Source: Atopobium fossor DSM 15642 (GTDB lineage Bacteria; Actinomycetota; Coriobacteriia; Coriobacteriales; Atopobiaceae). Taken from it: 64,000 nt of DNA. Every line of letters begins with the position of its first letter. Positions within the stretch are counted from its first letter, which is position 1. The notes under the pieces were generated by a model. The model saw only the letters and a program-made list of their open reading frames with translations. It was not told where the DNA came from and made no database searches. Below are positions 1-15,404 of the stretch, one piece after another. The stretch lies in the NCBI RefSeq assembly GCF_000483125.1, contig NZ_KI519553.1:933912-997911 (forward strand), written 5' to 3'. Both the position numbers and the translations under genes were made by a program.

Positions 1-77
1 ATGGCGTCTGCTGCCTCTACGGCTCCGATCAAACCCTTGGTCTCTACCATACCGAGTGCCTGTGTAATGTTGGACAT
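1..77 (-). CDS. Hexameric BMC shell protein, N-terminal part only
   Basis: This is the first 25 or so codons of a bacterial microcompartment hexamer protein (BMC-H, PduA/EutM type); the rest lies beyond base 1. The visible protein starts MSNITQALGMVETKG and continues with an LIGAVEAADA stretch, which is the conserved first strand and helix of the family. An ATG at 75-77 follows a strong AGGAGG site six bases upstream. The gene lies 43 bases after the pduL stop codon and is probably the next cistron of the choline locus. Shell hexamers tile the facets of the compartment and their central pores pass substrates. The call rests on the N-terminus alone, but the motif is very characteristic. Confidence 0.85.
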   Translation of the reverse strand, partial: MSNITQALGMVETKGLIGAVEAADA

Positions 78-120
78 CTTATCCTCCTGTTGTTTGCGTA
101 CCTATGTGTACGTTGTTGCC

Positions 121-1002
121 CTACTTAATAATCTGTACGACAGAACCATTAGCTATATGCAATGCATTTGCCTCTTCAGTGTCGATATGACAATCCAATG
201 CTGAGTTTTCCGTCACACGTATAGCTACGTTGTCAAGCTGCCCTGCACGCTCTCCATCAAAACGTATGGAAACTATCTGACCGTCACGTAAACCACGCTC
301 AGATGCCTCAGCGCAAGACATATGAATATGGCGTGCTGCCACAATGACACCTTCGGAAAGAACTACCGTTCCCTTAGGACCAACCACCGTAATGCCTGGG
401 GTTCCCTTAAGCTTTCCAGAAAGACGAATCACTTGCGGTATGCCCAGTTTAAAAGTATCGCCAGCAAGTACTTCAACCTGCGTTTGCTTACGGGTTGGTC
501 CCAGCACACGAACGTTTTGAATAACACCCTTGGGCCCCACGAGGGTTACACACTCTTTAGCGGCATACTGTCCAGGCTGAGAAAGCTCTTTTGCAACGTT
601 TAGTTCGTAGTCCTTGCCAAATAACCGATCAAGATGTTCTTGAGACAAATGAATATGACGACCAGATACCCCTATGGTCACACTGTCTAAATCCACCTTG
701 TTCGTTTTAGTCCAAAGCTGATGCAAACTTTCTTCAGTCCAAATACCACGCTTGAGACCAGCTGTTACAATGCGCTCGATTTCCTCAGCAGAAACGGCGG
801 CTTCATTCTTGTTGTCATGCAAAGTAGCATGCTGGTTTGTATTGCTGGTGCAATCGCCTTGCTCTGCATGCACAAAAGCTACTCCACACTCTTTGGCAAC
901 ATCTGCAGCCTGAGGTGTGACAATAGTGTTTGAATCCACCACGAGGTTCTCATGCTTTTTGGATGCCGTAAGCACATCCTGAGCGCAAATAAGCCTCTTC
1001 AT
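121..1002 (-). CDS. pduL: Phosphate acyltransferase PduL with N-terminal extension
   Basis: PduL moves the acyl group of acetyl-CoA to phosphate, recycling CoA inside the compartment and giving acetyl phosphate for ATP synthesis. The protein has 293 residues against about 210 for a typical PduL. Residues about 108-290 hold the two-barrel PduL fold with zinc-ligand motifs RHIHLS (His116, His118) and ARHIHM (His225, His227). The first 80 residues are an added module of the form LIC..DV...ITPxAxxxA, like the N-terminus of EutQ, which may tether the enzyme in the core (inference). The start was placed at 1002, after AAAGGAGAG, rather than at a longer reading frame that runs into eutN. It lies 13 bases after the EutN gene. 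Confidence 0.9.
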   Translation of the reverse strand: MKRLICAQDVLTASKKHENLVVDSNTIVTPQAADVAKECGVAFVHAEQGDCTSNTNQHATLHDNKNEAAVSAEEIERIVTAGLKRGIWTEESLHQLWTKTNKVDLDSVTIGVSGRHIHLSQEHLDRLFGKDYELNVAKELSQPGQYAAKECVTLVGPKGVIQNVRVLGPTRKQTQVEVLAGDTFKLGIPQVIRLSGKLKGTPGITVVGPKGTVVLSEGVIVAARHIHMSCAEASERGLRDGQIVSIRFDGERAGQLDNVAIRVTENSALDCHIDTEEANALHIANGSVVQIIK

Positions 1003-1015
1003 CTCACTCTCCTTT

Positions 1016-1285
1016 CTACAGAGCCACATCTTCATCAATAATGCCAACGATAACCGCATCTACCGGCACGTTTTTACCAAACTCATCTTTAATAAAGTGA
1101 TAGGCGGCGCTACCCGTAGTCACCAAGACCCTGTCGCCACAACCTGCGCTTATCGTATCCACACAGATGAGGTGATGTCCTTTTTTGTCTTCATCCAAGA
1201 TCTCCACACGCATAAGTTTCATGCCTTCAAGTTCCTCATATTTACGCGTGGCCCAGATGGAGCCAATAAGCTTACCCACAATCAT
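1016..1285 (-). CDS. EutN/CcmL-type pentameric BMC vertex protein
   Basis: This is an 89-residue protein of the EutN/CcmL/PduN family (BMC-P), whose pentamers cap the vertices of the polyhedral shell. It begins MIVGKLIGSIWATRK and carries the family's MRVEILD and ISAGCGDRVLVTTGS segments, the latter being the conserved nucleotide-loop-like turn. The start at 1283-1285 follows GGAGGTGAC; a longer frame exists but has no ribosome site. The first 14 bases overlap the end of the upstream BMC-domain gene, so the two are likely translationally coupled. It is the only vertex protein visible in this part of the locus. Confidence 0.9.
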   Translation of the reverse strand: MIVGKLIGSIWATRKYEELEGMKLMRVEILDEDKKGHHLICVDTISAGCGDRVLVTTGSAAYHFIKDEFGKNVPVDAVIVGIIDEDVAL

Positions 1286-1577
1286 GAGTGCCGTCACCTC
1301 CGTTCTTGATGTTCGTAAGACAAGCCATAACCTCTGCAGTATTACCAGCAATAGCCAGTAGCACCATGTTTTGAGGACAAGAGCCTCGAATGTCGGTTAC
1401 TACAACGCCCGCTGTTTTCTCGGCAATATCACTAGCCACTATCATTTCTATGAGCTTGCCTTGAATAAGTCCTACGGCAGCAGGTTTAAAATTTTCATCC
1501 CAACGTGCACCGCTTCTTTGGCGAATGATTGCCATAGTTCCAGCGGAGGGGGCTTTGATTATCTTGATATCAAGCAT
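1272..1577 (-). CDS. Divergent single-BMC-domain protein
   Basis: This 101-residue protein carries one BMC domain: residues about 34-92 give AVGLIQGKLIEMIVASDIA followed by GNTAEVMACLTNI, matching the strand-helix-strand and GDVAAV-like segments of hexamer proteins. About 33 residues precede the domain, a short tail follows, and the usual glycine-rich pore loop is replaced by RGSCPQNM. It could be a minor shell protein or a cargo-linked adaptor; the sequence does not decide. The start at 1575-1577 follows GAGGAGG and overlaps the end of the eutJ-like gene by 8 bases; its own end overlaps the eutN-like gene. The BMC fold is fairly sure, the exact role is not. Confidence 0.75.
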   Translation of the reverse strand: MLDIKIIKAPSAGTMAIIRQRSGARWDENFKPAAVGLIQGKLIEMIVASDIAEKTAGVVVTDIRGSCPQNMVLLAIAGNTAEVMACLTNIKNGGDGTHDCG

Positions 1578-2418
1578 GATTAGCCTCCTCAAGCATGTGC
1601 AAACGGCAACCCAAGGCAATGCCTAAGGGTGTCACAAACATCGGATGATGAGGCTTATGCACCGGTATATTCAGGGTCTTCTCGATATGCCCTTCAATAC
1701 CCGAAAGCTCGCTTGTACCACCTACGAGAATGATCTCAGGTACCTCACGGTTGCGGCATGCGCTCCGAATAATAGAGCTTACCTTGTCAACGGTTGGTGC
1801 AACGATGGGCAAAACTTCTGCATGATGAGCAGCATCTCTCTTATAGAGCTCAGCATCGTTAAATGACATGTTCTTAGCTCCGGCAAGAACGAGTGAGAAA
1901 TGCGTTCCACCGGTAGATTCATCAATGCACTCAACAAGCTTGCCATGTTCAAAGATGGATATGCCAGTAGTGCCACCACCAATATCTACCACGGCACCAT
2001 CTTGGGTATTGATTACAAGGTTAGCGGCTGTGGGCTCGTCAAACACAGCTACAACATTCATTCCGGTACTCTCGGCAACGTTTTTTACTGCACCGCCATC
2101 AAGCTGCTCAGTTCCTGGAGGAATGGCAACAGCACAGTGAATAAGCTCGGTACCTAAGACCTTTTCTAAGTTCTTTTTTAACGTAGCTGCTATGTCACAT
2201 GCGCCCACATAATCCACCACAAGACCATCGCGCACAACATTGGCAAACTGATAAGCACAGGCCACGGGATCACCGTTACCGTTTATAACGGTAAGCACGA
2301 TAAAAGCAGTACCCAAGTCTAAACCACAATAGAGCTCGTCAGTTTTAACAGGCTTGGGAGCATCTACCGTTTTAATAAGAGCGTCCAACAGCTTATTTGC
2401 GCATGTAATATTAATCAC
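1570..2418 (-). CDS. eutJ: EutJ-like Hsp70/actin-fold chaperone
   Basis: The protein (282 residues) belongs to the EutJ family, short relatives of the DnaK ATPase domain found in many microcompartment loci and thought to help assembly or protein quality control. It shows the actin-fold phosphate loops GLDLGTAF (residues about 32-39) and VVDIGGGTTGISIF, the FDEPTAAN motif and the adenosine loop ILVGGTSELSGIE. There is no substrate-binding domain, as is usual for EutJ. The start is GTG at 2416-2418, preceded by GGAGGAG and overlapping the stop of the EutT-like gene by 8 bases, which suggests translational coupling. A longer ATG frame upstream lies wholly inside that neighbour and was rejected. 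Confidence 0.85.
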   Translation of the reverse strand: MINITCANKLLDALIKTVDAPKPVKTDELYCGLDLGTAFIVLTVINGNGDPVACAYQFANVVRDGLVVDYVGACDIAATLKKNLEKVLGTELIHCAVAIPPGTEQLDGGAVKNVAESTGMNVVAVFDEPTAANLVINTQDGAVVDIGGGTTGISIFEHGKLVECIDESTGGTHFSLVLAGAKNMSFNDAELYKRDAAHHAEVLPIVAPTVDKVSSIIRSACRNREVPEIILVGGTSELSGIEGHIEKTLNIPVHKPHHPMFVTPLGIALGCRLHMLEEANHA

Positions 2419-3031
2419 AGGACGTCTCCTCCTCCACCTGCTCCATACTTTCTTTGAGAGCATAAAAAACTGTAGAGGCCTGGCAGGTCCACGAGCTAAT
2501 GGCTGAACAAACATGCTCGTCAGAACAAGTCATGTTCCAAAAATGAATAAAACGTAAAAGCTCACCACACATGACTGCCATTTCAAAATACACAGGATGA
2601 ACGCACGCATTAAGAGGAAGTGAAGGAATTACCTCAGGCATTGTCTTACAGACAGATTTTTCCTGCTGATCATCAGAGCAACACTCTGCCTGCGCAAGCT
2701 TGCCTTTTTGCCAAGCACTACCAACACACTCCAAGAGATGTGCTGTATCGTTATTAATACCTAAGGCCTTGCGCGATAAAAGCCTAAGACGTGCACCCAA
2801 AATACGCATATCATCTTTAAGTGCCTGTGTTTGATGAGAATCTTCATGCGCAACGTGCTTCTCTTTATTTACTGCATTCTTTTTGTAATAAAGCGATTCG
2901 AAGTCAATCCTAAAATCTATGAGAAATTGACGAGCGCTCGGTGTAAGGCGCGCGCCAGCTGGAAGTTTGAACGTATCAAAATGCTCTTGCGCATATGACC
3001 TGCGTAGTTCTCCTTCTGTTATATAATGCAT
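2411..3031 (-). CDS. EutT-like (cobalamin adenosyltransferase family) protein
   Basis: This 206-residue protein starts MHYITEGELRR and continues to LPAGARLTPSARQFL, a match to the N-terminus of ethanolamine-locus cobalamin adenosyltransferase EutT. A helical C-terminal half contains HPVYFEMAVMCGELLRF. EutT proteins use an HX11CCX2C metal site; here there is a Cys117-Cys118 pair but the next cysteine is Cys128, so the canonical spacing is lost. Nothing else in this locus needs B12, since CutC is a glycyl-radical enzyme, so a structural or redox role is possible. The start at 3029-3031 follows GAGGAGG and overlaps the end of the eutP-like gene by 13 bases. The family call is moderately sure, the activity unknown. 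Confidence 0.65.
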   Translation of the reverse strand: MHYITEGELRRSYAQEHFDTFKLPAGARLTPSARQFLIDFRIDFESLYYKKNAVNKEKHVAHEDSHQTQALKDDMRILGARLRLLSRKALGINNDTAHLLECVGSAWQKGKLAQAECCSDDQQEKSVCKTMPEVIPSLPLNACVHPVYFEMAVMCGELLRFIHFWNMTCSDEHVCSAISSWTCQASTVFYALKESMEQVEEETSCD

Positions 3032-3519
3032 GGCTGCCTCCTCTCGTTTCCGCTCTGTTTCATGGTCAATTGCACATCTTGTTTTTGCTTTGCCACCCAT
3101 TGTTTAAATTCACATATTCCTTCACCTGTTTTGGTGGAAAGGAATAACAGGTCTTGGCAGCCAGTGTCAGCTAAGAGCGCTTGGGCCTCTTTGCGCTGAG
3201 CTTCATTCAAAACATCAGCTTTGGTAACCACAGCCAAGCTAGGCTTTCTTGTTGCTCTTGCAAAACCACTCGAATAATACGAAAGACGCGTTTCTCCATC
3301 TAAAAGCAAGACAAATGCATGTGCTTGATTTTGTAAAAGCATGAGAATGACGTTGTGCATCCAGTGGTTTTCTACATAGCGTCCAGGAACCTCAAGGGTG
3401 TTTTGGCGGTAATAACAATCTTCTCTGTGCTTATGGACAGACGTGCAACCCTCTACTATGTCGGCAAGCGTACTTTTTCCTGCCCCATCAAGGCCTATAA
3501 ATGCAAAGTAAGCAGACAT
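3019..3519 (-). CDS. eutP: EutP/PduV-like GTPase-fold protein
   Basis: This 166-residue protein is of the EutP/PduV family, small Ras-like P-loop proteins of microcompartment loci with suggested roles in acetate kinase activity or compartment positioning. The P-loop is GLDGAGKST at residues 9-17, the family signature TLEVPGRYVENHW follows, and TKAD near residue 99 is the guanine-specificity motif (usual form N/TKxD). The start ATG shares one base with the stop of the EutS-like gene (TAATG). Two proteins of this locus, this one and the EutJ-like one, thus resemble nucleotide-dependent assembly factors. The family is clear; its biochemical role is debated in the literature. Confidence 0.85.
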   Translation of the reverse strand: MSAYFAFIGLDGAGKSTLADIVEGCTSVHKHREDCYYRQNTLEVPGRYVENHWMHNVILMLLQNQAHAFVLLLDGETRLSYYSSGFARATRKPSLAVVTKADVLNEAQRKEAQALLADTGCQDLLFLSTKTGEGICEFKQWVAKQKQDVQLTMKQSGNERRQPCII

Positions 3520-3857
3520 TAGGATTTCGTCACCTCCACAACACAGAAACCAAGGTTGTCATGGAGCATGTCACACACAACATGGAGCGACTCTTCTACA
3601 CTCTGAACATCGCCCATAATGACAACCGAACCGGTAAAACGATCTAAAAACCCAATCTCAACCGATGCTGCTTTAGCGGCAGCATCTGCTGCAATAATGG
3701 CTGTCTCGGAAGGGCTCAGGGTAAGAATACCAATGGCATCACCCGCAGCAACACCAATTCGCTCATTTACGCCAGGACCTGGCGAAGCAATAACATGAGC
3801 AAGTGTTACCTGCTTACCTGGGACAGACTCTTGTATTATGCGATCGAGTTTTTCCAT
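3519..3857 (-). CDS. eutS: EutS/PduU-type shell protein
   Basis: This 112-residue protein belongs to the circularly permuted BMC-H group (EutS/PduU). Near-diagnostic segments are IIQESVPGKQVTLAHVIASP at residues 8-27, IGILTLSPSETAIIAADAA and IGFLDRFTGSVVIMGDV. Proteins of this group carry an N-terminal beta-barrel over the pore and form bent or plugged hexamers at shell edges. The gene starts 5 bases after the cutD stop and ends in a TAATG overlap with the eutP-like gene; its ribosome site lies within the end of cutD. It resembles EutS slightly more than PduU at its C-terminus (VEVTKS). Confidence 0.92.
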   Translation of the reverse strand: MEKLDRIIQESVPGKQVTLAHVIASPGPGVNERIGVAAGDAIGILTLSPSETAIIAADAAAKAASVEIGFLDRFTGSVVIMGDVQSVEESLHVVCDMLHDNLGFCVVEVTKS

Positions 3858-3862
3858 AGTCC

Positions 3863-4807
3863 CTAATGCCTCACAAGATTAACCTTGAAGTCTGCAGCTT
3901 CAATCCATTTCTCAATACGATTCAAATCGTCATTGCTTAGAGATGGATCACCCTCAATCTCGTAATCTCGACCAAGGGATTTATATTTACCAACTCCCAA
4001 CTTGTGATAGGGCAAAAGATCAACGCCATCAAAGTTTTTTTGATATCGGTATGGATGGAAGAAAGCAATAACAGCATCGATTTCTTCCTTTGAATCGTTC
4101 ACATCTTTCAAGAGTGGCATACGCACGCGTACGTTATATCCGTTTTCAAGCAGCCACTTCACGTTAGCGAGAATAAGCTCGTTATTTACGCCCGTCCAAA
4201 ACTTATGTTTAACAGGATCCATCTGCTTAATATCGTATAAAAACAAATCAACGTAGGGGGCCACTTTCTTGAGCGTCTCTGTAGGTGTATATCCACAGGT
4301 CTCAAGAGCTGTGTGGTATCCCTTTGCCTGACTTGCCATAAATATCGCTAAAGCAGCTTCACTTTGTGCTAGAACTTCTCCACCAGAAAGCGTAATGCCA
4401 CCATCTGACATCCGATAAAAACCTTCATCTTGTTCAAAGAAACAGACAAGATCATCAACGGAATAATCTTCTCCCATAATTTGTAGGGCGCTGTGTAAAC
4501 ACGCTTCCTCACACTGGCGACAGCCAATACAACGAGTACTGCGATCTACCACATGTTTGCCATCCACCATCTTATGAATGGACACAGGGCAAACTTCAAC
4601 ACAAGCGGCACAGTCTACGCAGTTATCAGCTTTGAACATGACTTCATGTTCCCGCAGCTGACTTTCTGGATTTGAGCACCACTTACAGCGTAGGGGGCAG
4701 CCTTTAAGAAAGGCCATGGAGCGAACGCCCGGTCCATCGTACATGTTGTACTTCTGAAGATTGAAAATACGTACCTTACGTTCAACCTTTTCCTGTTGAG
4801 ACTCCAT
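3863..4807 (-). CDS. cutD: Choline TMA-lyase activating enzyme (radical SAM)
   Basis: CutD uses S-adenosylmethionine and a reduced iron-sulfur cluster to place the glycyl radical on CutC. The 314-residue protein shows YDGPGVRS, then the radical-SAM triad KGCPLRCKWCSNPES (Cys37, Cys41, Cys44). Inserted after it are two ferredoxin-type [4Fe-4S] sites, with cysteines 63, 66, 69, 73 and 93, 96, 99, 103, as in glycyl-radical activases of the 4Fe-4S-insert type. The glycine-rich SGGEVLAQ motif and later TIM-barrel strands follow. It lies 96 bases downstream of cutC on the same strand with its own site AAAGGGGG, so the two are expected to be co-transcribed. Identity is set by family plus adjacency to cutC. 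Confidence 0.95.
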   Translation of the reverse strand: MESQQEKVERKVRIFNLQKYNMYDGPGVRSMAFLKGCPLRCKWCSNPESQLREHEVMFKADNCVDCAACVEVCPVSIHKMVDGKHVVDRSTRCIGCRQCEEACLHSALQIMGEDYSVDDLVCFFEQDEGFYRMSDGGITLSGGEVLAQSEAALAIFMASQAKGYHTALETCGYTPTETLKKVAPYVDLFLYDIKQMDPVKHKFWTGVNNELILANVKWLLENGYNVRVRMPLLKDVNDSKEEIDAVIAFFHPYRYQKNFDGVDLLPYHKLGVGKYKSLGRDYEIEGDPSLSNDDLNRIEKWIEAADFKVNLVRH

Positions 4808-4903
4808 CTGTGTTTTGCCCCCTTTCTGCTTATCTCATTGTGAGCGTGCTAAACCACGCAAAACCGTTTTTGCTTGTACTAATCGTGCTTGTATTACTAG
4901 CGA

Positions 4904-7441
4904 CTAAAGCCTAGTGAGCATGGTGCGGCTAATAATCTCGTCTTGAACGTCCTTGCATAGCTCATTAAAGAACGCGCTGTAGCCAGCAACACGTACCACA
5001 AGATCACGATGCTTCTCTGGATGAGCCTGGGCATCGATGAGTGTCTCATTGTCAAGGTAGTTAAACTGCATCTCGCCGTTACCAAACATTGAGGCTGTAC
5101 GAAGCAGCGTAATAAGACCACGCTCGCCTTCAGGCGTATCGAGAATACCGCTCATAAGCTTAAAGTTATGAACCATACCGATATTCATAGAGTCGTTGGG
5201 CAATTTGCCTACGGACTTAATAATGGCGGTAGGACCATTGTGGTCGGCACCTTGGCTGGGGCTAATACCATCAGACAAAGGTGTCCATGCCTTACGACCA
5301 TTTGCAGAGGCACCGGTCATCTCGCCAAATGGCGTGTTATTGGAAATGGAAAGCGTACCAACAGACAAGTGGGAGTACAGCGTCTTATACTTCACATGAA
5401 TGTGCTCGGTGTAATGCAGAATATCTGCTGCAATGCTATCGGCGTAATCGTCATCGTTGCCGTACTTAGGAGCGTTGATGCAATCCTGCTGAATCTTCTC
5501 GTATCCTACAAAGTCAGCCTTAAGCGCCTCATTAAGCTCATCGAGTGTGTACTTATGGTCATCAAAGACAAGCTTTTTAATGGCAGCCATAGAGTCGGTA
5601 TAGGTGCCCAAACCTGTCCATACAACACCGGGGCCGTAGTTATACATAGCGCCACCAGCTGCAACATCCTTGCCCTTTTCCATGCAGCCCTCAAACATAA
5701 TGGACATCAAGGGTTTAGGTGCAATATCGCGGGCAACACGCTGAGAAATAACCGTAGCGACATTAGTCCACTTAGTAACATACTGAATAGTCTTCTTGAC
5801 TGCCGCATCAAACTCTTCAAAGGTCTTGTATTGAGAAAGGTCACCAAGGTCTGGAGTTACCTGTTTGCCATACCACAAATCAACACCATGATTGAGGGTA
5901 AGCTCAATACACACAGGCCATTGCGTGTATGACGTAGAAGTCCACTGATACAGACGGCCAGACTTTTGAGGCTCAACGCAACCCATCATGCAGTAGTCAC
6001 GAGAGTCCTCAACCGAAACGCCCTTGGCAAGCATCATCTTGATATGTGTATCGTCAAAGTGGCAAGCTGGGAAGCCCATTCCTGAACGGACAAGATCTAC
6101 AATCTTACGCATGTAACGCTCGGGCGACTTGTTGTGAATACGGCATGCAATCGTAGGCTGATAAATCTTTACATGACGGGCAGCATCCATGAGCAGGTAA
6201 GTTAAATCGTTGGTTGCATCGTCACCCCTACGAGTAATACCACCCAGGGTCATGTTGATGAAGGGCTGATAACCTGCAAAGAATTCGGATTGACCGCGTG
6301 AAGTAACCCACATAACTTCACTCAACTTAATGAGCATGCAGCCTGCAATATCAAAAGCCTGATAAGGAGTGATGCGACCAGCCTTAATGTCTGCCTCATA
6401 GAAGGGATACATGTATTGGTCTACACGACCAATGGACATACCGGTTTGGTTCTCCTCCACTGGCAACAAGGATTCAATCGTAAATACTGCCTGCATAGCC
6501 TCATAAAAAGTCCTTGGTGCGTGAGCAGGAACATAAGCCAGAATTTCAGAAATCTTCTCTAGCTCACTCTTACGCTTTGGATCATGCTCAGCCGCAGCCT
6601 TTTGTGCTGCATACTCACTCAGGCGCTTTGAATAAATCATGACGCCTTCGGTAGTGTCAATAACCGACTTATAGAAGTAAATCTTATCTAGATCATCTGG
6701 GTTAGCATAATCAAGCTCGGCAAGATGCTCTTTTGCCTCAGCCTGAATATCGAGCATACCCTTGCGCATAAGAATAACGTCAAAACCAGGGTTAGAGTCG
6801 CCACCACCACTCATGGCATGATATGAGCAGTCAGATACATAGGACTCGCCAGAAAGCTCCCATACGCCTGCCTCACGATACTGGTCCTCACAAACCTCGT
6901 CTTGAGACTTACCAGCCCAGAAGGGGAAAAGCACCTCACGGCAATAACGCTTGTCCTCATCAGAAATATAGAAAGGATCCTGAGGACGATCGCCAATGGT
7001 ATCAAGCTCTTCCTCAAGCCAACGCCATGCAAGATCGGGAGAGAAGGCACCAGCACGTGGAGCGCCACAAGGAGCACCTACGATAAGCTCATCATCTTGA
7101 ATAACCAAAGGAGCAGTTTCGCAGCAGCGGCGGAATGCCTTAGCACGCAGCTCAATCTTAGGCATGCCTGGGTTTTCCTTCATAATTTCGGTAACCGCAC
7201 GAGCACGGAACGTGGTAATGCTAGGAACCTGCTTGAGGTAGTTTTCCTTTAGGCGGGCATGACGCTGAGTAGGTCCCTCAGGGATGTCGGTAGGACCATC
7301 CTCTGTGCAGGGCTCACTATGAAGTGGCATATCCAGCTGATCGGAAACTTTCGCAAACATCTCGCGTACAGCGTGCTTTTCCTCAGCGCTCATTGTTTTG
7401 GTGGCCTCGGAAAGTTCTTTTGCAAACTCCTTGATATCCAT
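4904..7441 (-). CDS. cutC: Choline trimethylamine-lyase (glycyl radical enzyme)
   Basis: CutC cleaves choline to trimethylamine and acetaldehyde by glycyl-radical chemistry without oxygen or B12. The protein is 845 residues, full length. The active-site motif GCVEP gives Cys488 (thiyl radical) and Glu490 (base); RVAGYSAFF near the C-terminus gives the radical glycine Gly820. Residues known to bind choline in Desulfovibrio alaskensis CutC are all present at one position less: Tyr207, Asp215, Phe394, Thr501 and Tyr505. This separates it from glycerol, propanediol and other dehydratases of the family. It starts 13 bases after the aldehyde dehydrogenase gene, with AAAAAAGGAG as ribosome site. Oxygen sensitivity implies an anaerobic lifestyle. 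Confidence 0.97.
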
Positions 7442-7454
7442 CCTTACTCCTTTT

Positions 7455-8960
7455 TTAGTTATCTCTCATGGACTCTAGCAAGCCAGAGAACCAATCAATC
7501 GATTCCGCACAGTTGTCTTGCGACATATGAGCCTTATCGCTTAAAGACTTTGTTTTTGTTGCTACTGTAGGTGCATGATCAGACGAACTTGCACGTTTTA
7601 TAAGGTCATGCTGCTGCATATCCTTGCCTACACCTACCTGGCGTTTTCTTACAAAATCGCCATACGTAACGCCTAAAGCTGAGGTAGTAGCACGATCCCA
7701 GCCTGTAATGGTTAATGTCTTAGGAAGTTCTGTGTGACTGCCAATGCTGCCAAGAGCGGTACTGACATTTACAAGTACACGTCCAACAGGCTTTTTGAGA
7801 ATGAACTGCTGAACCACTTCGGGATTATTCGAAAAAATTGACAGTGCATTACCATGTCCACTGTTAAGAATGAGCTCAATGCACTTCTCGCAAGCAGTAC
7901 GCCAATTTTCCTCAACATAGTAGGAAAGCACGGGACCATACTTAGCCTTAGAAAAGAAGCTCTGCTCACTCACATAGGGCTTACGCACTATGAGCACTTT
8001 GGTATGAGTTGGCACTGCAATAGCAGCTCTGCGAGCAAGATCTTCTGCAGACTTAGCAATGAGTTCCGGATAGGGTTTGCCATCAGGCATGAAAAGCAGC
8101 GCGCCAAGACGATCTGCTTCTTCATCGTCTAAAAAGTAACAACCCTTTTGCCGAAGAGCACCTTGGAGCTGTTTGTCCACCTGTGCTTCAACAACAATCG
8201 ATTGCTCAGCTCCTGGAAGCATGCCATAACAAAACGATTTACCCAGCACAATTTCTTGAGCGCAAGCATCAATATCAGCTGTTGACTCAACAAAAACAGG
8301 GTTATTACCCAAAGATGCATAGTAAACATCTTTGCCGTACGCATTGTATGGATTCTCGCGTGTATTTTCACGAGAATCTATCAAGACACTTACACAAGGC
8401 TGCGAACAAACCCAGTCCTCACCCTCAGGACAACCCACTTGCAAGAAACTCAAAGCCTCTTCGGGATAATGGCATGAACGTGCAATAGCAAGTACATCTG
8501 CCATAACACGACGACAACTCTCATGCACCCGTGTACGCGCTGAAAAAACAATGGGACTTTTGGAGCGTACCGCATACAACAGTTGCGAAAGCAACGTAGG
8601 TATTGCCAGCCAATCTGGAAGCAGTGATACCACAACTCCCTTGGACAAATACACTGCCGCAGATTTATTATCCCAAACAATTTTTTGTACCGGCGTTTGC
8701 TTGCATACATCATCAAGCACATCCGTAAGAACCCACTCTATAAGCTGAGCCTCTTCTTGAGGATTACCATAATCGCTCTCGTCAAAAGCAAGTTCTGCAT
8801 AAGCATGAGCATTCTGGTATAAACCCTCACGTAAACGTACAAGAAAACTCTCAACCAAAGTCATGGGCAAGCAGTCCAAAGTCTCAACAGACTCAGCAGC
8901 GTGCTCAAGGAGGATACGCGCCTCCTGTATGGATAGAAGATCATTATCGATAAGAGACAC
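7455..8960 (-). CDS. CoA-acylating-type aldehyde dehydrogenase paralogue, catalytic Cys replaced
   Basis: The 501-residue protein is of the acetaldehyde dehydrogenase class (EutE/PduP/AdhE N-domain), which in choline microcompartments would turn acetaldehyde into acetyl-CoA. Segments supporting the fold are [30 protein letters not shown] and [12 protein letters not shown]. Where relatives have the catalytic cysteine in a GxICxxEQ motif, this protein reads GMLPGAEQ, so Pro249 occupies the cysteine position; Cys244 lies five residues earlier. After about residue 440 comes a low-complexity linker and a final amphipathic helix [12 protein letters not shown], resembling an encapsulation peptide. 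It may be non-catalytic, structural or use another residue. The gene stands between the shell genes and cutC. Confidence 0.8.
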
Positions 8961-8971
8961 GTGACACCTCC

Positions 8972-9283
8972 TTAATAGGGCAAGAGCTTCTCGATAGTGT
9001 ACTTATCGGTAATCTTCTTAAGGCTTGGATGAGGACGAGGAATAACAACGGAGCTGTAAACCTCTGCGCCCAAATCCTCTACAGCTTTGATGCCTGCAGC
9101 TACTGCTGCTTTGCAGGCAGCGACATCTCCTTCTACTAAAATGGAGATGTAACCCGAAGCCGTATTTTCATAGCCAATGAGTGTAACGTCGCCTGCTTTA
9201 CACATAGCGTCGCCTGCCTCAAGCACCCAGACCAGGCCAAAGGTCTCTATGGCGCCCAGTGCATTTATGCCTTCGTGAGCCAT
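8972..9283 (-). CDS. Hexameric BMC shell protein (BMC-H)
   Basis: This 103-residue protein has one BMC domain covering residues about 7-90: ALGAIETFGLVWVLEAGDAM, then VTLIGYENTASGYISILVEG and the helix GDVAACKAAVAAG, the classic hexamer pattern. A C-terminal tail of about 20 residues ends in TIEKLLPY. It should form facet hexamers with a small central pore. It lies 9 bases after the other hexamer gene and 11 bases before the aldehyde dehydrogenase gene, with AGGAGGTACGT as ribosome region. It differs enough from its neighbour to suggest distinct pores or positions in a mixed shell. Confidence 0.93.
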   Translation of the reverse strand: MAHEGINALGAIETFGLVWVLEAGDAMCKAGDVTLIGYENTASGYISILVEGDVAACKAAVAAGIKAVEDLGAEVYSSVVIPRPHPSLKKITDKYTIEKLLPY

Positions 9284-9292
9284 ACGTACCTC

Positions 9293-9592
9293 CTAGTTGT
9301 AATCCACGTCATGAACAGAAATAACGTCACCAACAGGTGGAACAGGACGGCGCATAACGTTATGTGCCGTAAGCGTGCCAATACTGGATGCAGCTTCACA
9401 ACCCGCTTTAACCGCAGCTTCACAAGCAGCTACGTCGCCTTTAACAACAATAGTTACAAGCGTCGAGCCGATATTCTCATAACTAATGAGTTCTGTATTA
9501 CCTGCCTTGAGCATTGCATCTGCTGCATAAAGTGCAGGTACCATACCCGTTGTTTCGATAAGGCCTATGGCCTCTTCTCCCTTATAGCGCAT
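9293..9592 (-). CDS. Hexameric BMC shell protein (BMC-H)
   Basis: This 99-residue protein is a single-domain BMC hexamer protein. It reads AIGLIETTGMVPALYAADAM at residues 8-27, then TELISYENIGSTLVTIVVKG and GDVAACEAAVKAG, followed by a tail with RRPVPPVGD typical of BMC-H proteins. It is the first shell gene of the operon after the small wHTH-like gene (12 bases) and is followed by the second hexamer gene. Together the two, the EutS-type, the EutN-type, the divergent BMC protein and the truncated hexamer at the window edge give at least six shell components. Confidence 0.93.
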   Translation of the reverse strand: MRYKGEEAIGLIETTGMVPALYAADAMLKAGNTELISYENIGSTLVTIVVKGDVAACEAAVKAGCEAASSIGTLTAHNVMRRPVPPVGDVISVHDVDYN

Positions 9593-9604
9593 GAATACTC
9601 CTCA

Positions 9605-9868
9605 CTACTTGATGTAGGAATTGATGGTGTCTCGCTGCTCGGAATCTGCGGCATAAAAGACACGTAAGTCCCCTTTATCGTCAAGGTCAACGCGAGACTC
9701 CCCAACCAGTCCATTTTTCTCGGCAGTCATAAGCGCTTCTTGAACCTTGTCGTGCGTGAAGGCAGAAAAGCCCGAGTACTCACTTTTAAGTGCCATGATT
9801 ACGTCATCGGCACTGGCTTCTTCAACCTCAGTAAAGTATTTGAGAATTGCATAGTTAAGTGGACGCAT
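9605..9868 (-). CDS. Small wHTH-like protein of the choline locus, function unknown
   Basis: I do not recognise a characterised family. The 87-residue product begins MRPLNYAILKYFTEV and reads like a winged helix: helix 1 (residues 4-13), a two-helix element SADDVIMALKSEY and HDKVQEALMTAEKNGLV, then a charged wing with SRVDLDDKGDLRVFY. Such a fold could bind DNA, as an operon-specific regulator, or act as a protein adaptor. Its ATG shares one base with the transporter stop codon (TAATG), which ties its expression to the head of the operon. No cysteines, signal sequence or membrane segment is seen. Confidence 0.7.
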   Translation of the reverse strand: MRPLNYAILKYFTEVEEASADDVIMALKSEYSGFSAFTHDKVQEALMTAEKNGLVGESRVDLDDKGDLRVFYAADSEQRDTINSYIK

Positions 9869-10959
9869 TATGCCTCCTCCTTCTTTCCTAGATACTCAAG
9901 GGGATCTACGGCAATAATGACAATGCCAACAATCATGACAAACGCTGCAGCCCAAGCAATAGGTGCCAAGGCATAGCCGTCGATGTTCATGATGACACCC
10001 ACGATAATCCAGGTTGTAAGAGGAGCAACAAAGGTATAAGTACCGTTGCAGGCCATACCCAAAGCAGTACCACACATCGAGTTGCCGCGGTACCAACTGG
10101 CAAAAGATTTATAAGCTGCAAAACCAGCAACAATAAAGCATGCAATCGTAGGCAAATCTGTAAGAGCACTAGTTACATAACCAATAGTGTCACCCATTGG
10201 TACACCACCAATAAGCGCCATAGCTGGAAGCAATACAAACAATTCTGAGATACCCGAAACGCACTGACGAATGGTAATACCAATTTGGGTATCAATCATG
10301 CAGCTAGCATAACCTGCAATGCAGCCTTCGGCACCCCAGCCTAAAGCAGCGATAAACGCAAGCATGAGACCAAATCCCAAATTGGAAGACGCATCGCCAG
10401 TAAGGCTCGTAGAGCCAATCATAAGACCCGCAAAGACGCAGACAGCAATGCCTATCATTTTGCGAAGCCCAAGTTCCTGTTTAAACAGGATACGCGAAAG
10501 AATTGCTCCAATTGCAGGATTAAGTGCAGCAATAGGAACTACAATGGTTCCCGCCTGAGACAGAGCAATGATGTAGGCAACGGTTGCAATGGGACCGCCT
10601 ACAAGGGCACTTACAATCATAATAATGCCAGGCTTGGTGGGAACAGTACGACCAAAATCTGCAAGTTTTCCCTGTTTTGCCGTGATACCAAGCGCCCAAA
10701 GAGCACTGCAACTATCATTGATAGCACTTGCCACGGTAGGAAGAATAAAAATTGCTAAGAAGCCCGCAGGATCAATACTATCGAGCCATCCAAGCCACAA
10801 ACTCGTACTTCCACCTGCTGTAATAAAAGCAGTATAGATGCCATACATAAGGCTAGAGAAAAGAGCGATTAAAATACCTTTTCGAAAAAACTCCTGATCA
10901 AGGCTACGCTTCTTTTGCTCAGCAGTAGTGCTTGCCACGGTAGCTGTGGTTGATGCCAT
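9868..10959 (-). CDS. DMT-superfamily (EamA-like) transporter, candidate choline or TMA carrier
   Basis: This 363-residue membrane protein has about ten hydrophobic segments and two repeated halves, each with a small-residue-rich first helix pair, as in EamA-type members of the drug/metabolite transporter superfamily. The second membrane helices include VGGPIATVAYIIALSQAG and the following PIAALNPAIGAILSRILF, a typical EamA turn. It is the first gene of the choline locus, reached after a 556-base intergenic region, and starts at an ATG preceded by GGAGGTAACAC. By position it is a candidate for choline uptake or trimethylamine export; the superfamily includes exporters of quaternary ammonium compounds. 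The substrate is an inference from context. Confidence 0.75.
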   Translation of the reverse strand: MASTTATVASTTAEQKKRSLDQEFFRKGILIALFSSLMYGIYTAFITAGGSTSLWLGWLDSIDPAGFLAIFILPTVASAINDSCSALWALGITAKQGKLADFGRTVPTKPGIIMIVSALVGGPIATVAYIIALSQAGTIVVPIAALNPAIGAILSRILFKQELGLRKMIGIAVCVFAGLMIGSTSLTGDASSNLGFGLMLAFIAALGWGAEGCIAGYASCMIDTQIGITIRQCVSGISELFVLLPAMALIGGVPMGDTIGYVTSALTDLPTIACFIVAGFAAYKSFASWYRGNSMCGTALGMACNGTYTFVAPLTTWIIVGVIMNIDGYALAPIAWAAAFVMIVGIVIIAVDPLEYLGKKEEA

Positions 10960-11451
10960 GTGTTACCTCCTATGCGTGATATACGACAACGTTCGTGAGA
11001 TACAGCAAAGCGCTCTGACAATCCTAGGTTGTGGTTGAATTACCTCCTCAATGAATAAATTGTCGGGAGTGACACAATGTGAAAGTAAATGACTTAACAA
11101 TTTTGGTAACGCAAATGGCTTTTTTGGGGCGGTGAGCGGATTATTTAAACCATTCACCGATTTATTTCTACCGATTAGCCGTTCTTATTTAAACAACCTT
11201 ATTGGATAGCATGCAAATTGCTACTTCATTACTAATAATTCCTATTCGCAATTTTGAATAAATAGTTTTAAAAAATGTATGAGAATTTCTACTAAAAGAG
11301 AAATAGAGTCGCAGAAATTTTATAGAGCTACAGATAATAGCGTATATCTTTTAGAAAATGAAATTTAACCTATTTTAAAAAGTTGCATATGACAAACATT
11401 TACGTAGTGTCACACTCATAACAAAGCAAGACAGTGTAGCATACCTTTAAA
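10960..11451. promoter_or_regulatory. AT-rich upstream region of the choline operon
   Basis: About 490 bases without a convincing gene separate the transporter from the msrAB terminator. The region is much richer in A and T than the flanking genes. It holds a direct repeat TTATTTAAAC at 11141-11150 and 11185-11194, 44 bases apart (about four helical turns), and an inverted repeat CGGTGA (11130-11135) with TCACCG (11154-11159). A second ribosome-like GAGGAGG lies at 11041-11048 on the minus strand without a clear gene. I could not settle on a single promoter. A 64-codon minus-strand frame here has no family resemblance and was not called. Confidence 0.45.
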
Positions 11452-11494
11452 AAACGCAGAAGAAATAGCTTTGAAGTCTACTTCTTCTGCGTTT
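11452..11494 (-). terminator. Intrinsic terminator after msrAB
   Basis: A perfect 13-base inverted repeat, AAACGCAGAAGAA at 11452-11464 and its complement at 11482-11494, with a 17-base loop, lies 21 bases after the msrAB stop. On the minus strand the stem is followed by a run of T. It insulates the methionine-repair genes from the choline operon. Confidence 0.85.
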
Positions 11495-11515
11495 ATATGC
11501 GCTCTTTCTACTAGC

Positions 11516-12661
11516 CTATTTCCAGCTATATTGCGAGCAAGCTGCTAAAAACTCACCGTATCCTTCAGCTTCCATACACTCATAGGGAATAAACTTTAAC
11601 GCTAAGCTATCAATACAATAGCGCAGTCCACCCTGCTCTTGAGGACCATCATTAAACACATGCCCAAGATGAGAGTCTCCTACACGGCTGCGCACTTCGG
11701 TTCTTACCATTCCATAGCTCGTATCTTTATATTCCTTAATAACATCAGGGTCTATTGGTCGTACAAAGCTTGGCCAGCCACAACCCGAATTAAACTTATC
11801 CTTTGAAGAAAACAGAGGTTCGCCCGTAACAACATCTACGTAGATTCCAGCCTCATGATTATCGTGATACTCTCCAGAAAAAGCGGGTTCAGTACCAGCT
11901 TTTTGAGTAACCTCATACTGCTCTGGTGTAAGCATACGCTTAATTTCACTATCGGAGGGCTTGTGATAACGCGCTGCATCCACCTTAGGAACAGTAGAAC
12001 CATCCACGTCCTTATTGAGTTTCACGTCTTTAAGTGAGCTAAAGTCTATATGACAATATCCATGAGGGTTCTTCTTCAAATAATCCTGGTGATATTCCTC
12101 TGCTGGATAAAACTCCGCAAGCTTTGTGAGTTCTACTGCAAGCGTTGTGCCGTACTGTTTTTGCTGTTCATCAAACACCGCTTGCAAGGTAGGTTTATCG
12201 GCCTCATCTACAAAGTACATTCCTGTCCGGTACTGACTTCCACGATCATTACCCTGCTGATTAACACTAAGCGGATTGATAATCTTAAAATACTGCTGGG
12301 TAAGACTTTCCAGACTCACTATTGAGGGGTCATAGCGCACTTGTACGGTCTCGGCATGTCCTGTCTTACCCGAACATACCTCCTCATAGCTAGGATTTTT
12401 GGTCGTCCCATTAGCGTAGCCTGACACAACATCATATACACCTGGAATGCGCGAGAAATACTCTTCGACTCCCCAAAAACAACCCCCTGCAAAATATATT
12501 TCATGCAGGTTATTAGTATCGATTTTTGCCATTGCAGCCTCCTGCTTTTTCTCAAGTTCACTATCATGCATCTGAGGTGGCTTGTTCGTCACATATATGG
12601 CAATACCAACCACAACCACCGCAACTAACACCAGTATTGGCAGAGAAATGTGTTTATTCAT
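11516..12661 (-). CDS. msrAB: Membrane-anchored MsrA-MsrB methionine sulfoxide reductase fusion
   Basis: The protein (381 residues) repairs both the S and R forms of methionine sulfoxide in extracytoplasmic proteins. Residues 5-24 form an N-terminal membrane anchor, then a short charged linker. The MsrA domain (about 54-205) has the catalytic GGCFWG motif with Cys61 and the [14 protein letters not shown] segment. The MsrB domain (about 236-372) has CGWPSF, the [10 protein letters not shown] motif and the catalytic RYCIDS with Cys349; zinc-binding CxxC pairs found in some MsrB are absent. The gene follows the CcdA-thioredoxin fusion by 16 bases; that protein should supply the electrons. Similar modules are known in Streptococcus pneumoniae and Fusobacterium. 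Confidence 0.93.
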
Positions 12662-12677
12662 AGCCTTATCGCCTTAT

Positions 12678-13865
12678 CTACGTTAACGAACTAAGAATTT
12701 TTTCCAGCTCAGCTGTAGGAACATCGCCAATGCGCTTATCAACAATCGTTCCATTAGAGTTGATAAATACAGACGTTGGATATGCTTGTATATCAAAGTC
12801 CTTGAGCAGCGTACCCGTGTTATCCATCAAGATAGGCGCAGTAATCTTTTGCTTGGTTACCCAATTAATAATTTGATCTTCAGAAAGCTCCGATCCAAGA
12901 CCCGGAGAAAGCACCGAGACAACCTCTATATCGCCTTTCTTTTCGTGTTCGGCAGCAACGCGAGTAAATTCGTCAAGACCGTTAAGGCAGGCGGGACACC
13001 ATGTTGCCCACATCTTTACATACACAGGTTTTCCCTTAAGAGACTCGAGCGTCAGTGTTTTACCATCCAGCGTTTTAAGCGATGTTTGCTTCCATTCAGT
13101 CATAGACTGTGCCACTTCACTATCATTCATACCATCACCTTGCTGCATCTTACTGTGGGAATCTTGTGTTTGGGTGTCCATGCTTTTCATAGGCATACCA
13201 AGGCCACCTACCTGAGAAATCACCATCCACGCTCCCAAAAGGGCAATGCATACACCGCCAATCTTCTTGAGAAGCTCGGTATATTTGTTAAGTTGGCGTA
13301 CTTTTTCTAAAAGCACTGAAGAGCCAAGAGCAAGTACTGCAAAGGGTACCGATAATCCCAGCGAGTACACCACTAAAAGCAGTCCTCCCTGCAAAGCATT
13401 TCCTTGCTGAGCTGCTAAAGCCAAAACTGTGGCAAGAACAGGACCAATACAAGGTGTCCAACCAAAGGAAAAAGCAAGACCCAACAAAAAGGCGCCACCC
13501 ACATGTTTGGCATCAATGTGTTGCATATCAACGCGTTTCTCGGTATCTAGAGCAGGAATAACAAGAATTCCTGCAAGATGCAGGCCAAACAAGCAGATAA
13601 CAAAGCCAAGTCCCACTGACAGAAGAGGATTTGAAAGCACACCGCCAAAAAATCCCGCTCCAAAACCTAGGGCAAAAAAGGTTATCGAAATACCTGCAAT
13701 AAATGCAAGAGTATTTGCAATACGGCGCTGTATCACCAAAGCAACTGTTCCATCCTCGGTGAGTAAAAGACCAATATATACAGGTAATACAGGCAAAATA
13801 CAGGGCGAGAAAAACGAAAGCGCGCCCGCAAAAAATGTTGATGCAAACATTCCAATATCAGCCAT
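12678..13865 (-). CDS. CcdA (DsbD-type) membrane domain fused to TlpA-like thioredoxin
   Basis: This 395-residue protein carries reducing power across the membrane. Residues 1-220 form a six-helix CcdA/DsbD domain with the two redox cysteines in FSPCILP (Cys22) and GWTPCIGP (Cys139). A linker of about 30 residues, rich in methionine (224, 226, 229, 240, 246), leads to an extracytoplasmic thioredoxin-like domain with WATWCPACLNG (Cys290, Cys293) and the cis-proline segment AYPTSVFI. The start was placed at MADIGM (13863-13865), after GAGAGGAAC, instead of nine codons further up. The likely electron acceptor is MsrAB, encoded 16 bases downstream. The fusion removes the need for a separate thioredoxin. 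Confidence 0.9.
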   Translation of the reverse strand: MADIGMFASTFFAGALSFFSPCILPVLPVYIGLLLTEDGTVALVIQRRIANTLAFIAGISITFFALGFGAGFFGGVLSNPLLSVGLGFVICLFGLHLAGILVIPALDTEKRVDMQHIDAKHVGGAFLLGLAFSFGWTPCIGPVLATVLALAAQQGNALQGGLLLVVYSLGLSVPFAVLALGSSVLLEKVRQLNKYTELLKKIGGVCIALLGAWMVISQVGGLGMPMKSMDTQTQDSHSKMQQGDGMNDSEVAQSMTEWKQTSLKTLDGKTLTLESLKGKPVYVKMWATWCPACLNGLDEFTRVAAEHEKKGDIEVVSVLSPGLGSELSEDQIINWVTKQKITAPILMDNTGTLLKDFDIQAYPTSVFINSNGTIVDKRIGDVPTAELEKILSSLT

Positions 13866-13996
13866 ACGAGTTCCTCTCAATACACTTCTCACACGTCGAC
13901 GTTTCTGGTGTGTGAAAGCTAAGTTTTATTTTGCCGTTTTGCTACAGCAGACTAACGACAACGAGAGACTCTTCAGGATTCTTCAGAAATAGTTAT

Positions 13997-15391
13997 TTAA
14001 ACAACGGCTGTAAAAGGAATAGTAACTATAGCACTATAGTGCTCTACATCCTGTGAAACTACCAGTTCCCAACCACAAGACGAGAAAAGCTGCATGGCAG
14101 TAGCAACTCCCAGTCCTGTTCCTGCAGTATTTTCAATCTCAGGTGCAGGGGTATTTGTTATTGATACCACAGCAGCAGTCTCCAAACAGGAACACTGTAT
14201 GCAAACCGGAGCCGTACGATTAGCATGCTGGATCACATTTGAGAAAAGATTGGAAAATGCTCGGCGCAGTATCCTTTGGTTAACGTGCACGCCCTTTGTG
14301 CAAGTAACAGGCAATTCTTTATATTCAATCTGAAATCCCGCACTCGTAAGTTCAAGGATTCCTTCATCCAAAACCTTTGGAAGAAACTCGTAACATGACT
14401 GTTGTTCTGTCTGGTTTTTCTCGATAGGTACCTGGGCAGAACAAGAGCTATCCATATCACCAATATGCTGCTTTAACACATAATCAAACAAGTCATCAGA
14501 AAGTTCTTTGATTTGATAGGCCTTCTCGCGACTACTTTGCAAATAACGCTGAGCGTCCTGCTTGTTAGTACACTTTCCCAAGCTTAAGATATCGAGATAC
14601 CCAATCAAAGCTGTAAGTGGCGAACGCAAGTCATGTGACATCTCGGTCACAAGCTTATACTCCCGATTGCGCAAACGTTCCTCTTCAACAAAACGTTGGC
14701 GTATTGCTAAACGCATATCATCAATACTTTGCGCTAAACTTCCTAGCTCATCATTACCTTTAACACTTATGGCATGATCGAGTTCTCCGCCCTCAAGAAG
14801 ACTCAATTCATAATCAAGCAAACGAATATACCGTACGATACGACGCATAAGTACCAGTAAAGTGATTATGCACACCACAAAACCCAACACAATTGAGATA
14901 ATTGTGGCAACAAAGCGTCCTTGTGCACCAATATTGTCAAAAAATACCGCTGAGGCCTCTCCATCAGCAAAAACAATAGGATAACTCCTTTGCCACTTTG
15001 CCATATCACCACTCGAAATATTAAGTGACGATATATCGGTACTCATACTTGAGTCATACAGCGTCATGCCATCGCGATATATCTGCAAAGCCACATATCC
15101 AGCATCCTCAACCCACGCATCCAAGGCTTTCTTATCGGAAACAGAAATGTTCTTCTCGTTTACATAGCTTTGGAGTGTCTGTGCATCAGACTCAAGTCGC
15201 TGACAATACACACATTCACGTGAAAAATACGCATCAAATGCGTGTGAAGCAAGTGCATACACCACAACATAGGTGACAATACCAAAAAGCAAAGCTATAG
15301 TTGCATAACCCACTAAACGCCAGCCCAAGCCGCTGCCAGCATGTGGTGAAAAACGCTCAGTCAGTTTTGTAAAAAGAGAATGACGCTGCAT
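13997..15391 (-). CDS. Membrane sensor histidine kinase with extracytoplasmic CxxC
   Basis: The kinase (464 residues) has a first membrane helix at about 27-49, an extracytoplasmic domain of about 110 residues, a second helix at about 162-182, a HAMP linker, a HisKA domain with EMSHDLRSPL (His253) and a C-terminal ATPase domain with the N-box FSNLFSNVIQHAN and the G-box NTAGTGLG. Directly outside the first helix is CVYC (Cys60, Cys63), a possible thiol switch. The gene begins 13 bases after its response regulator and stands 131 bases before the ccdA-thioredoxin gene. Regulation of the methionine-repair genes by this pair is an inference from position and the CxxC. The start has only a weak ribosome site. 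Confidence 0.88.
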   Translation of the reverse strand: MQRHSLFTKLTERFSPHAGSGLGWRLVGYATIALLFGIVTYVVVYALASHAFDAYFSRECVYCQRLESDAQTLQSYVNEKNISVSDKKALDAWVEDAGYVALQIYRDGMTLYDSSMSTDISSLNISSGDMAKWQRSYPIVFADGEASAVFFDNIGAQGRFVATIISIVLGFVVCIITLLVLMRRIVRYIRLLDYELSLLEGGELDHAISVKGNDELGSLAQSIDDMRLAIRQRFVEEERLRNREYKLVTEMSHDLRSPLTALIGYLDILSLGKCTNKQDAQRYLQSSREKAYQIKELSDDLFDYVLKQHIGDMDSSCSAQVPIEKNQTEQQSCYEFLPKVLDEGILELTSAGFQIEYKELPVTCTKGVHVNQRILRRAFSNLFSNVIQHANRTAPVCIQCSCLETAAVVSITNTPAPEIENTAGTGLGVATAMQLFSSCGWELVVSQDVEHYSAIVTIPFTAVV

Positions 15392-15404
15392 CTGGATTGG
15401 ATCT

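Follow-up and report, generated by a model that had tools for sequence, protein, structure and literature searches.

A predicted GRM1 choline-fermentation operon in a Coriobacteriia genome and the cysteine-less aldehyde dehydrogenase homologue beside its CutC

Why would an operon for anaerobic choline fermentation keep, directly upstream of its choline lyase gene, an aldehyde dehydrogenase (ALDH) homologue without a catalytic cysteine? The question is raised by the cut operon at positions 1-10959, minus strand, of a stretch of 64,000 nucleotides (the window; bases 933912-997911 of contig C1, NZ_KI519553.1, in a genome of 1.65 Mb). A first-pass annotation of the bare sequence had described a microcompartment for choline fermentation in what is likely a Coriobacteriia genome. 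Our analysis upheld this description: scores on curated families, residues of the choline pocket, the accessory genes and a LicB-type transporter all support it, as does a CutC sharing 96% identity with its counterpart in Atopobium minutum DSM 20586. Positions 1-10959, the larger part of the whole operon, very probably form together with their left flank an operon of the GRM1 type (glycyl radical enzyme-associated microcompartment; cut type I) that serves anaerobic choline fermentation. The choline microcompartment of this genus is already known and the locus is an ordinary one, the system being in print for A. minutum (PMC6620236). Its main question is the ALDH homologue beside CutC, found full-length in 71 of 80 related loci (the 80 most similar among 507 confirmed stretches, a set in which distant cut loci are not represented). 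Gene content, gene order, residues, loss of the cysteine and purifying selection were read directly from the locus, and the argument starts from three genes.

4904-7441, minus strand: CutC, choline trimethylamine-lyase, a glycyl radical enzyme of 845 residues (TIGR04394, 1608.7 bits against a cut-off of 1050; best PDB match 5fau)
3863-4807, minus strand: CutD, radical SAM activating enzyme of CutC (TIGR04395, 521.9 bits against a cut-off of 360)
7455-8960, minus strand: predicted pseudo aldehyde dehydrogenase with the acylating-ALDH fold (alignment; AlphaFold model), the sole ALDH within the window

CutC and CutD both exceeded curated equivalog cut-offs. CutC aligned over residues 21-842 with 5fau, the enzyme of Desulfovibrio alaskensis, and has a CutC-length N-terminus with a short extension. 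It carries Tyr207, Asp215, Phe394, Cys488, Glu490, Thr501, Tyr505 and Gly820, and also Thr333. All choline-contact and radical residues are alike in the two proteins, although the host phylum differs and each residue number is one lower here. The 5FAU residues listed in a 2026 review are 208, 216, 395, 489, 491, 502, 506 and 821, and also Thr334 (PMC13258700), and the eight choline-contact and radical residues named in the first-pass annotation are all present against this list, one position below as claimed. The eight positions were invariant in the window and the 80 related loci, which is weak evidence since the loci were picked by similarity; position 333 is Thr in 80 of 81 CutC rows. Glycyl radical enzymes have one common fold, and models of sulfopropanediol and hydroxyproline dehydratases and the diol dehydratase structure 5i2a matched more weakly, but another dehydratase or lyase of a different GRM type (e.g., 1,2-propanediol dehydratase) is extremely improbable and was rejected on family scores (1608.7 bits, the next equivalog reaching 569.4) and pocket residues, all those checked being retained, with the length of the N-terminus and the LicB-type transporter pointing the same way. 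The genome holds two further pairs of glycyl radical enzyme and activase, L007 on contig C3 and L008 on contig C1, 37% and 35% identical to CutC. By eye, phosphotransferase system-like genes lie near one pair, and transaldolase-like and glycerol-dehydrogenase-like genes beside the other.

GRM1 loci are described as having a CutC with a short N-terminal extension, not the 350-residue one of GRM2, and GrpU in ∼85% of cases (PMC6325248). They are also already known for two ALDHs, one of them without the catalytic cysteine (PMC4207490). We compared the operon with the published GRM locus types, as the first-pass annotation had proposed, and found each GRM1 feature examined, PduS and PduT apart. 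The 845-residue CutC has the short extension; the ALDH in the window has Pro249 at the position held by Cys256 in a second copy to the left; shell proteins occur together with GrpU; and the aldehyde-processing core is represented by PduL in the window and by an acylating ALDH and an iron alcohol dehydrogenase just left of it.

These last two genes came to light when the sequence was extended beyond base 1, the other check proposed. Leftward on the same strand lie one or more shell genes broken by a run of N, then a 555-residue acylating ALDH that keeps its catalytic cysteine, a TPR protein, DUF4037 and DUF4125 proteins, a MerR-type regulator and the iron alcohol dehydrogenase. A search of the genome placed acetate kinase elsewhere on the same contig (454 bits), with one partial match in addition. 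The absence of alcohol dehydrogenase, acetate kinase and a second ALDH from the window is an edge effect, because ALDH and iron alcohol dehydrogenase adjoin base 1 on the left and acetate kinase lies elsewhere in the genome. The earlier remark that none of the three is visible before the edge is true inside the window but misleading for the operon.

What, then, is the ALDH homologue beside CutC? In the alignment, the window copy has Pro249 where the catalytic Cys should stand, and Leu in place of Asn in the PSTNPTS motif. The first-pass annotation had overlooked the missing cysteine, as well as the identity of the BMC protein at 1272-1577 as the putative iron-sulfur shell protein GrpU. The product of 7455-8960 lacks the catalytic cysteine of an active acylating ALDH, and its sequence predicts a catalytically dead protein. 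The same holds across the comparison set. All 71 full-length copies directly upstream of cutC (at least 350 aligned residues) are without the cysteine, which is replaced by Pro in 35, Ser in 28, Ala in 6, Thr in 1 and Val in 1; the 70 downstream ALDH copies, in 69 loci, all have it. Ala, Thr and Val at this position would extend the list of replacements already in print. The nine loci without a full-length copy comprise three with a partial copy at a contig end (L044, L066, L087), two with split frames (L051, L076), three without a match (L033, L049, L065) and one without upstream sequence (L070). One of the split copies, in L051 (Anaerococcus hydrogenalis), has a second group of CutC-like, CutD-like and ALDH genes upstream.

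The cysteine-less copies also share residues of their own. Glu350, at the end of a strand, and Lys359, in the following helix, are fixed in 71/71 of them, whereas cysteine-bearing copies have Val in 68/71 and Leu in 69/71 at these positions (the 70 downstream copies plus one far-upstream copy in L051). Pro343, Phe223, Leu373 and Val392 are likewise found in 71/71 cysteine-less copies. A literature search on GRM1, the catalytic cysteine and pseudoenzymes returned no title on these residues, though no search was aimed at them; as far as seen, residues fixed solely in the cysteine-less copies are new. The nonsynonymous to synonymous substitution ratio (dN/dS) against A. minutum was 0.09 for the window copy and 0.07 for its active sister. 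The AlphaFold model (pLDDT, predicted local distance difference test, 86.4) retains the ALDH fold (3k9d, E 2.3e-40); at its C-terminus a linker of low confidence leads to a last helix, residues 487-500, that resembles an encapsulation peptide.

Taken with the residues peculiar to these copies, purifying selection suggests that this protein has a non-catalytic role; most likely it would organise the enzyme core or bind CutC. An analogy from GRM2 supports this: there CutF assembled into larger complexes and moved full-length CutC towards larger sizes, which was read as cross-linking (PMC6971018), and we infer that the behaviour may carry over to GRM1. A more specific proposal, on which our confidence is evenly balanced, is that the cutC-adjacent ALDH of GRM1 loci is a dedicated non-catalytic partner for building or regulating the CutC core, with a tethered C-terminal helix for shell docking.

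Could the protein still be active somehow, through a different nucleophile or as a partner that binds cofactor or aldehyde? The retained fold, a CEKC motif in 62/71 copies and the 28 copies with Ser at the nucleophile position would allow it, but we regard it as unlikely. In 43/71 copies the nucleophile position holds Pro, Ala, Thr or Val, and in the window it holds Pro; the second Cys of CEKC is absent in 6/71 (5 CEKS, 1 CEKA); and the operon also holds an intact ALDH. That the gene is a decaying duplicate without a job is quite improbable: replacement of the cysteine in every full-length copy, and the three loci without a match and two with split frames, would fit decay, but the low dN/dS, the persistence of a full-length copy beside cutC in 71/80 loci, the complete predicted fold and the invariant Glu350 and Lys359 speak against it, as does the positional counterpart in Clostridium ljungdahlii, which is induced by choline (PMC12016505). 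In a FastTree tree a single origin of the cysteine-less copies is possible, not proven, with two changes, at least one of them forced, and a warning for long branches.

The remaining genes of the operon in the window are as follows.

9868-10959, minus strand: DMT-superfamily transporter of LicB (choline importer) type, with which the run opens (Pfam EamA below cut-off on the single sequence; profile match to 7b0k)
9605-9868, minus strand: small conserved protein of 87 residues (homologue in 67/80 loci)
9293-9592, minus strand: BMC-H shell protein (PF00936, 86.7 bits)
8972-9283, minus strand: BMC-H shell protein (PF00936, 85.2 bits)
3519-3857, minus strand: EutS-type BMC-H shell protein (NF012012, 123.4 bits against a cut-off of 123)
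3019-3519, minus strand: EutP/PduV-like GTPase-fold protein (PF10662, 64.6 bits against a cut-off of 21; below NCBIfam EutP cut-offs)
2411-3031, minus strand: EutT-like protein (weak NF011595 match to the N-terminal 42 residues)
1570-2418, minus strand: EutJ-type protein with GTG start (NF011660, 348.7 bits against a cut-off of 182)
1272-1577, minus strand: GrpU, BMC-H shell protein with GSCPQN pore motif, putative iron-sulfur site (4olo, E 3.2e-24; 4olp 'GrpU', 7.7e-9)
1016-1285, minus strand: EutN/CcmL-type BMC-P pentamer, shell vertex (PF03319, 89 bits)
121-1002, minus strand: PduL-type phosphotransacylase with an EutQ-like N-terminal part in frame (PF06130, 252 bits)
1-77, minus strand: start (first codons) of a further BMC-H gene continuing left of the window, its open reading frame interrupted by a run of N

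From 10959 to 1, the order is thus LicB-type transporter, 87-residue protein, two BMC-H, ALDH homologue, cutC, cutD, EutS-type, EutP-like, EutT-like, EutJ, GrpU, EutN and PduL. With inner start codons chosen by us, the genes overlap or lie at most 15 bases apart, the sole exception being 96 bases between cutC and cutD. CutC is indeed embedded in a shell operon, as first described, with shell and accessory genes in one packed single-strand run. A broken or decaying operon was rejected on the open frames in the window and on dN/dS values of 0.02-0.19 for 18 locus genes against A. minutum DSM 20586.

A 30-row profile of the transporter matched the LicB structure 7b0k at E 6.5e-15, while its single sequence found no match in a PDB search; it appears akin to LicB and is a putative choline importer. 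The 87-residue protein had no NCBIfam or Pfam match. The EutT-like protein falls short of a full-length EutT, matching NF011595 only at positions 3-44 of 267 (21.9 bits against 226). In an alignment of 34 sequences its ∼43 N-terminal residues are clearly common with Bacillota homologues and the remainder is divergent and helical; its model, a helical bundle (mean pLDDT 83.2; predicted template modelling score 0.61), gave no confident PDB match (best E 0.045). The GrpU motif G.CPQ[NH] recurs in 71 of 72 homologues from other loci. EutQ-like and PduL parts share a single frame in 7/80 loci (L009, L010, L011, L013, L014, L016, L022) and in the window. In the window the shell set consists of three BMC-H, GrpU and one BMC-P. 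The A. minutum locus (L009:17329-18520) has three near-identical tandem BMC-H copies at the place of the run of N here, and poor assembly at the left edge of the window could be due to such copies. Two of the three A. minutum copies have an extended in-frame N-terminal leader.

Several observations weigh against the GRM1 reading. A scan of 10900-11600 found no sigma-70-like promoter and no terminator (shuffles give 2.3 and 0.6). The run of N among the shell genes at the window edge means that the shell set was only partly read. A PF00936 search of the genome hit four places, all single-domain, and found no BMC-T; with the run of N, and PduS not having been searched for, this is where the GRM1b traits PduS and PduT stand. 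Finally, a kinase role for the putative EutP and EutQ proteins is unproven here because their matches fall below NCBIfam cut-offs, that of the EutQ-like part reaching 28.1 bits (NF012001) over residues 20-121 of the longer frame.

Known families suggest how the operon would work. Choline would be imported by the LicB-type transporter and, within a protein shell, split by CutC, once activated by CutD, into trimethylamine and acetaldehyde. The active acylating ALDH encoded left of the window would convert acetaldehyde to acetyl-CoA and NADH, and the iron alcohol dehydrogenase would reduce other acetaldehyde to ethanol, regenerating NAD+. PduL would form acetyl phosphate, from which acetate kinase would yield ATP, and the cysteine-less ALDH would most likely bind or organise CutC. 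These reactions, encapsulation and trimethylamine output, like the role of the cysteine-less copy, are predictions by family membership.

Directly right of the operon (11516-16145) lie an MsrA/MsrB fusion, a CcdA/TlpA-like thiol-disulfide protein and, by eye, a histidine kinase and a response regulator. Ten larger open reading frames scanned in 16307-55745 are ordinary: branched-chain-type ABC transporter parts, MurJ, UvrA, UvrB, PolA, two FAD proteins and a solute-binding protein.

How unusual is the arrangement? Among the 80 loci, a number of them cut by contig ends, homologues were counted for CutD (80), EutJ (74), GrpU-type (72), EutN (71), PduL (71), the transporter (69), EutS-type (67), EutT-like (63) and EutP (63). 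The core order (ALDH homologue, CutC, CutD, EutJ, GrpU, EutN, ALDH) was found in 61/80 loci and a ten-gene order in 46/80. Many of the 19 loci without the core order are cut short, and four, from Desulfovibrionaceae (L074, L075, L080, L082), are truly rearranged. PduL precedes the active ALDH in only 14 of 69 scorable loci and follows it in 55. The first-pass annotation had called the gene order distinctive; this holds only in part, the core being the usual one and the place of PduL alone a minority trait.

The PduL-first loci are 6 of 7 titled Coriobacteriia, the exception (L012) having its best PduL after the ALDH, and 8/8 Peptoniphilaceae. Homologues of DUF4037 occur in 23/80 loci, of DUF4125 in 19/80 and of the TPR protein in 16/80, and the MerR/DUF4125/DUF4037/TPR group is common to Peptoniphilaceae cut loci (8/8) and some others. 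A FastTree tree built from 81 CutC rows groups Coriobacteriia with one Alkalibaculum-titled row (L010), near Peptoniphilaceae (support 90). The place of PduL, the MerR/DUF4125/DUF4037/TPR group and the CutC tree agree in pointing to a GRM1 sub-variant common to Coriobacteriia and Peptoniphilaceae loci. L010, on a contig titled Alkalibaculum bacchi, has an Atopobiaceae-like cut locus with a CutC 86% identical, and is possibly mis-binned. DUF4125 and DUF4037 each occur once in the source genome; both have been reported beside another anaerobic pathway, with no function assigned in the available text (PMC12583861).

Across 18 locus genes, protein identities with A. minutum DSM 20586 were 68-97% and synonymous divergence (dS) was ∼0.6-1.7. 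Because of this divergence, the source organism is probably a species other than A. minutum, a placement by locus genes and not by ribosomal or other markers. Three genomes of its genus, this one included, were compared, and two of them have CutC. Of 396 sampled genomes of the class, 14 (9/153 genera) had a CutC at E <= 1e-300; within the family its occurrence is patchy, with 12 of 140 genomes (8/35 genera) at the same threshold. The statement that actinobacterial examples are few holds in that carriers are a minority of the class, but an example from this very genus was already in print, and these Actinobacteria have been proposed to have received cut genes from Bacillota (PMC6620236). An association with cardiovascular and kidney disease is stated for trimethylamine formed from choline (PMC6620236), which makes it useful to know the carriers of the pathway; the full gene set is now confirmed in an A. 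minutum relative.

Finally, we compared the operon with known systems. Cut microcompartments are in print for A. minutum 10063974, Collinsella tanakaei and Olsenella uli (PMC6620236; the GRM1 of O. uli also in PMC4207490), and CutC with shell genes for the rumen species Olsenella umbonata (PMC7807696). The A. minutum DSM 20586 locus belongs to the same class and operon type, and over the part retrieved its genes follow the same order. Peptoniphilaceae GRM1 loci (Anaerococcus, Peptoniphilus) are alike in order, in PduL before the active ALDH and in the MerR/DUF4125/DUF4037/TPR group, and form the nearest CutC clade, but the EutQ-like/PduL fusion is found in only 1/8 of them (L022) and their cysteine-less ALDH is only ∼33-36% identical. 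Other Bacillota GRM1 loci (e.g., C. ljungdahlii) share the core order of BMC-H pair, ALDH homologue, cutC, cutD, EutT-like, EutJ, shell genes and active ALDH, but there PduL comes after the active ALDH; an alcohol dehydrogenase lies between cutD and EutJ in 35/80 loci, and one lies at the far end here. The C. ljungdahlii locus, listed mirrored, is induced by choline, including an 'aldehyde dehydrogenase' beside the lyase gene, and on this substrate polyhedral structures were observed (PMC12016505). GRM2 (cut type II) of Klebsiella pneumoniae shares substrate and chemistry (PMC6971018), but the operon described here differs from it in a CutC without the 350-residue N-terminal extension, in the presence of GrpU and in the loss of the cysteine from one of its two ALDHs.

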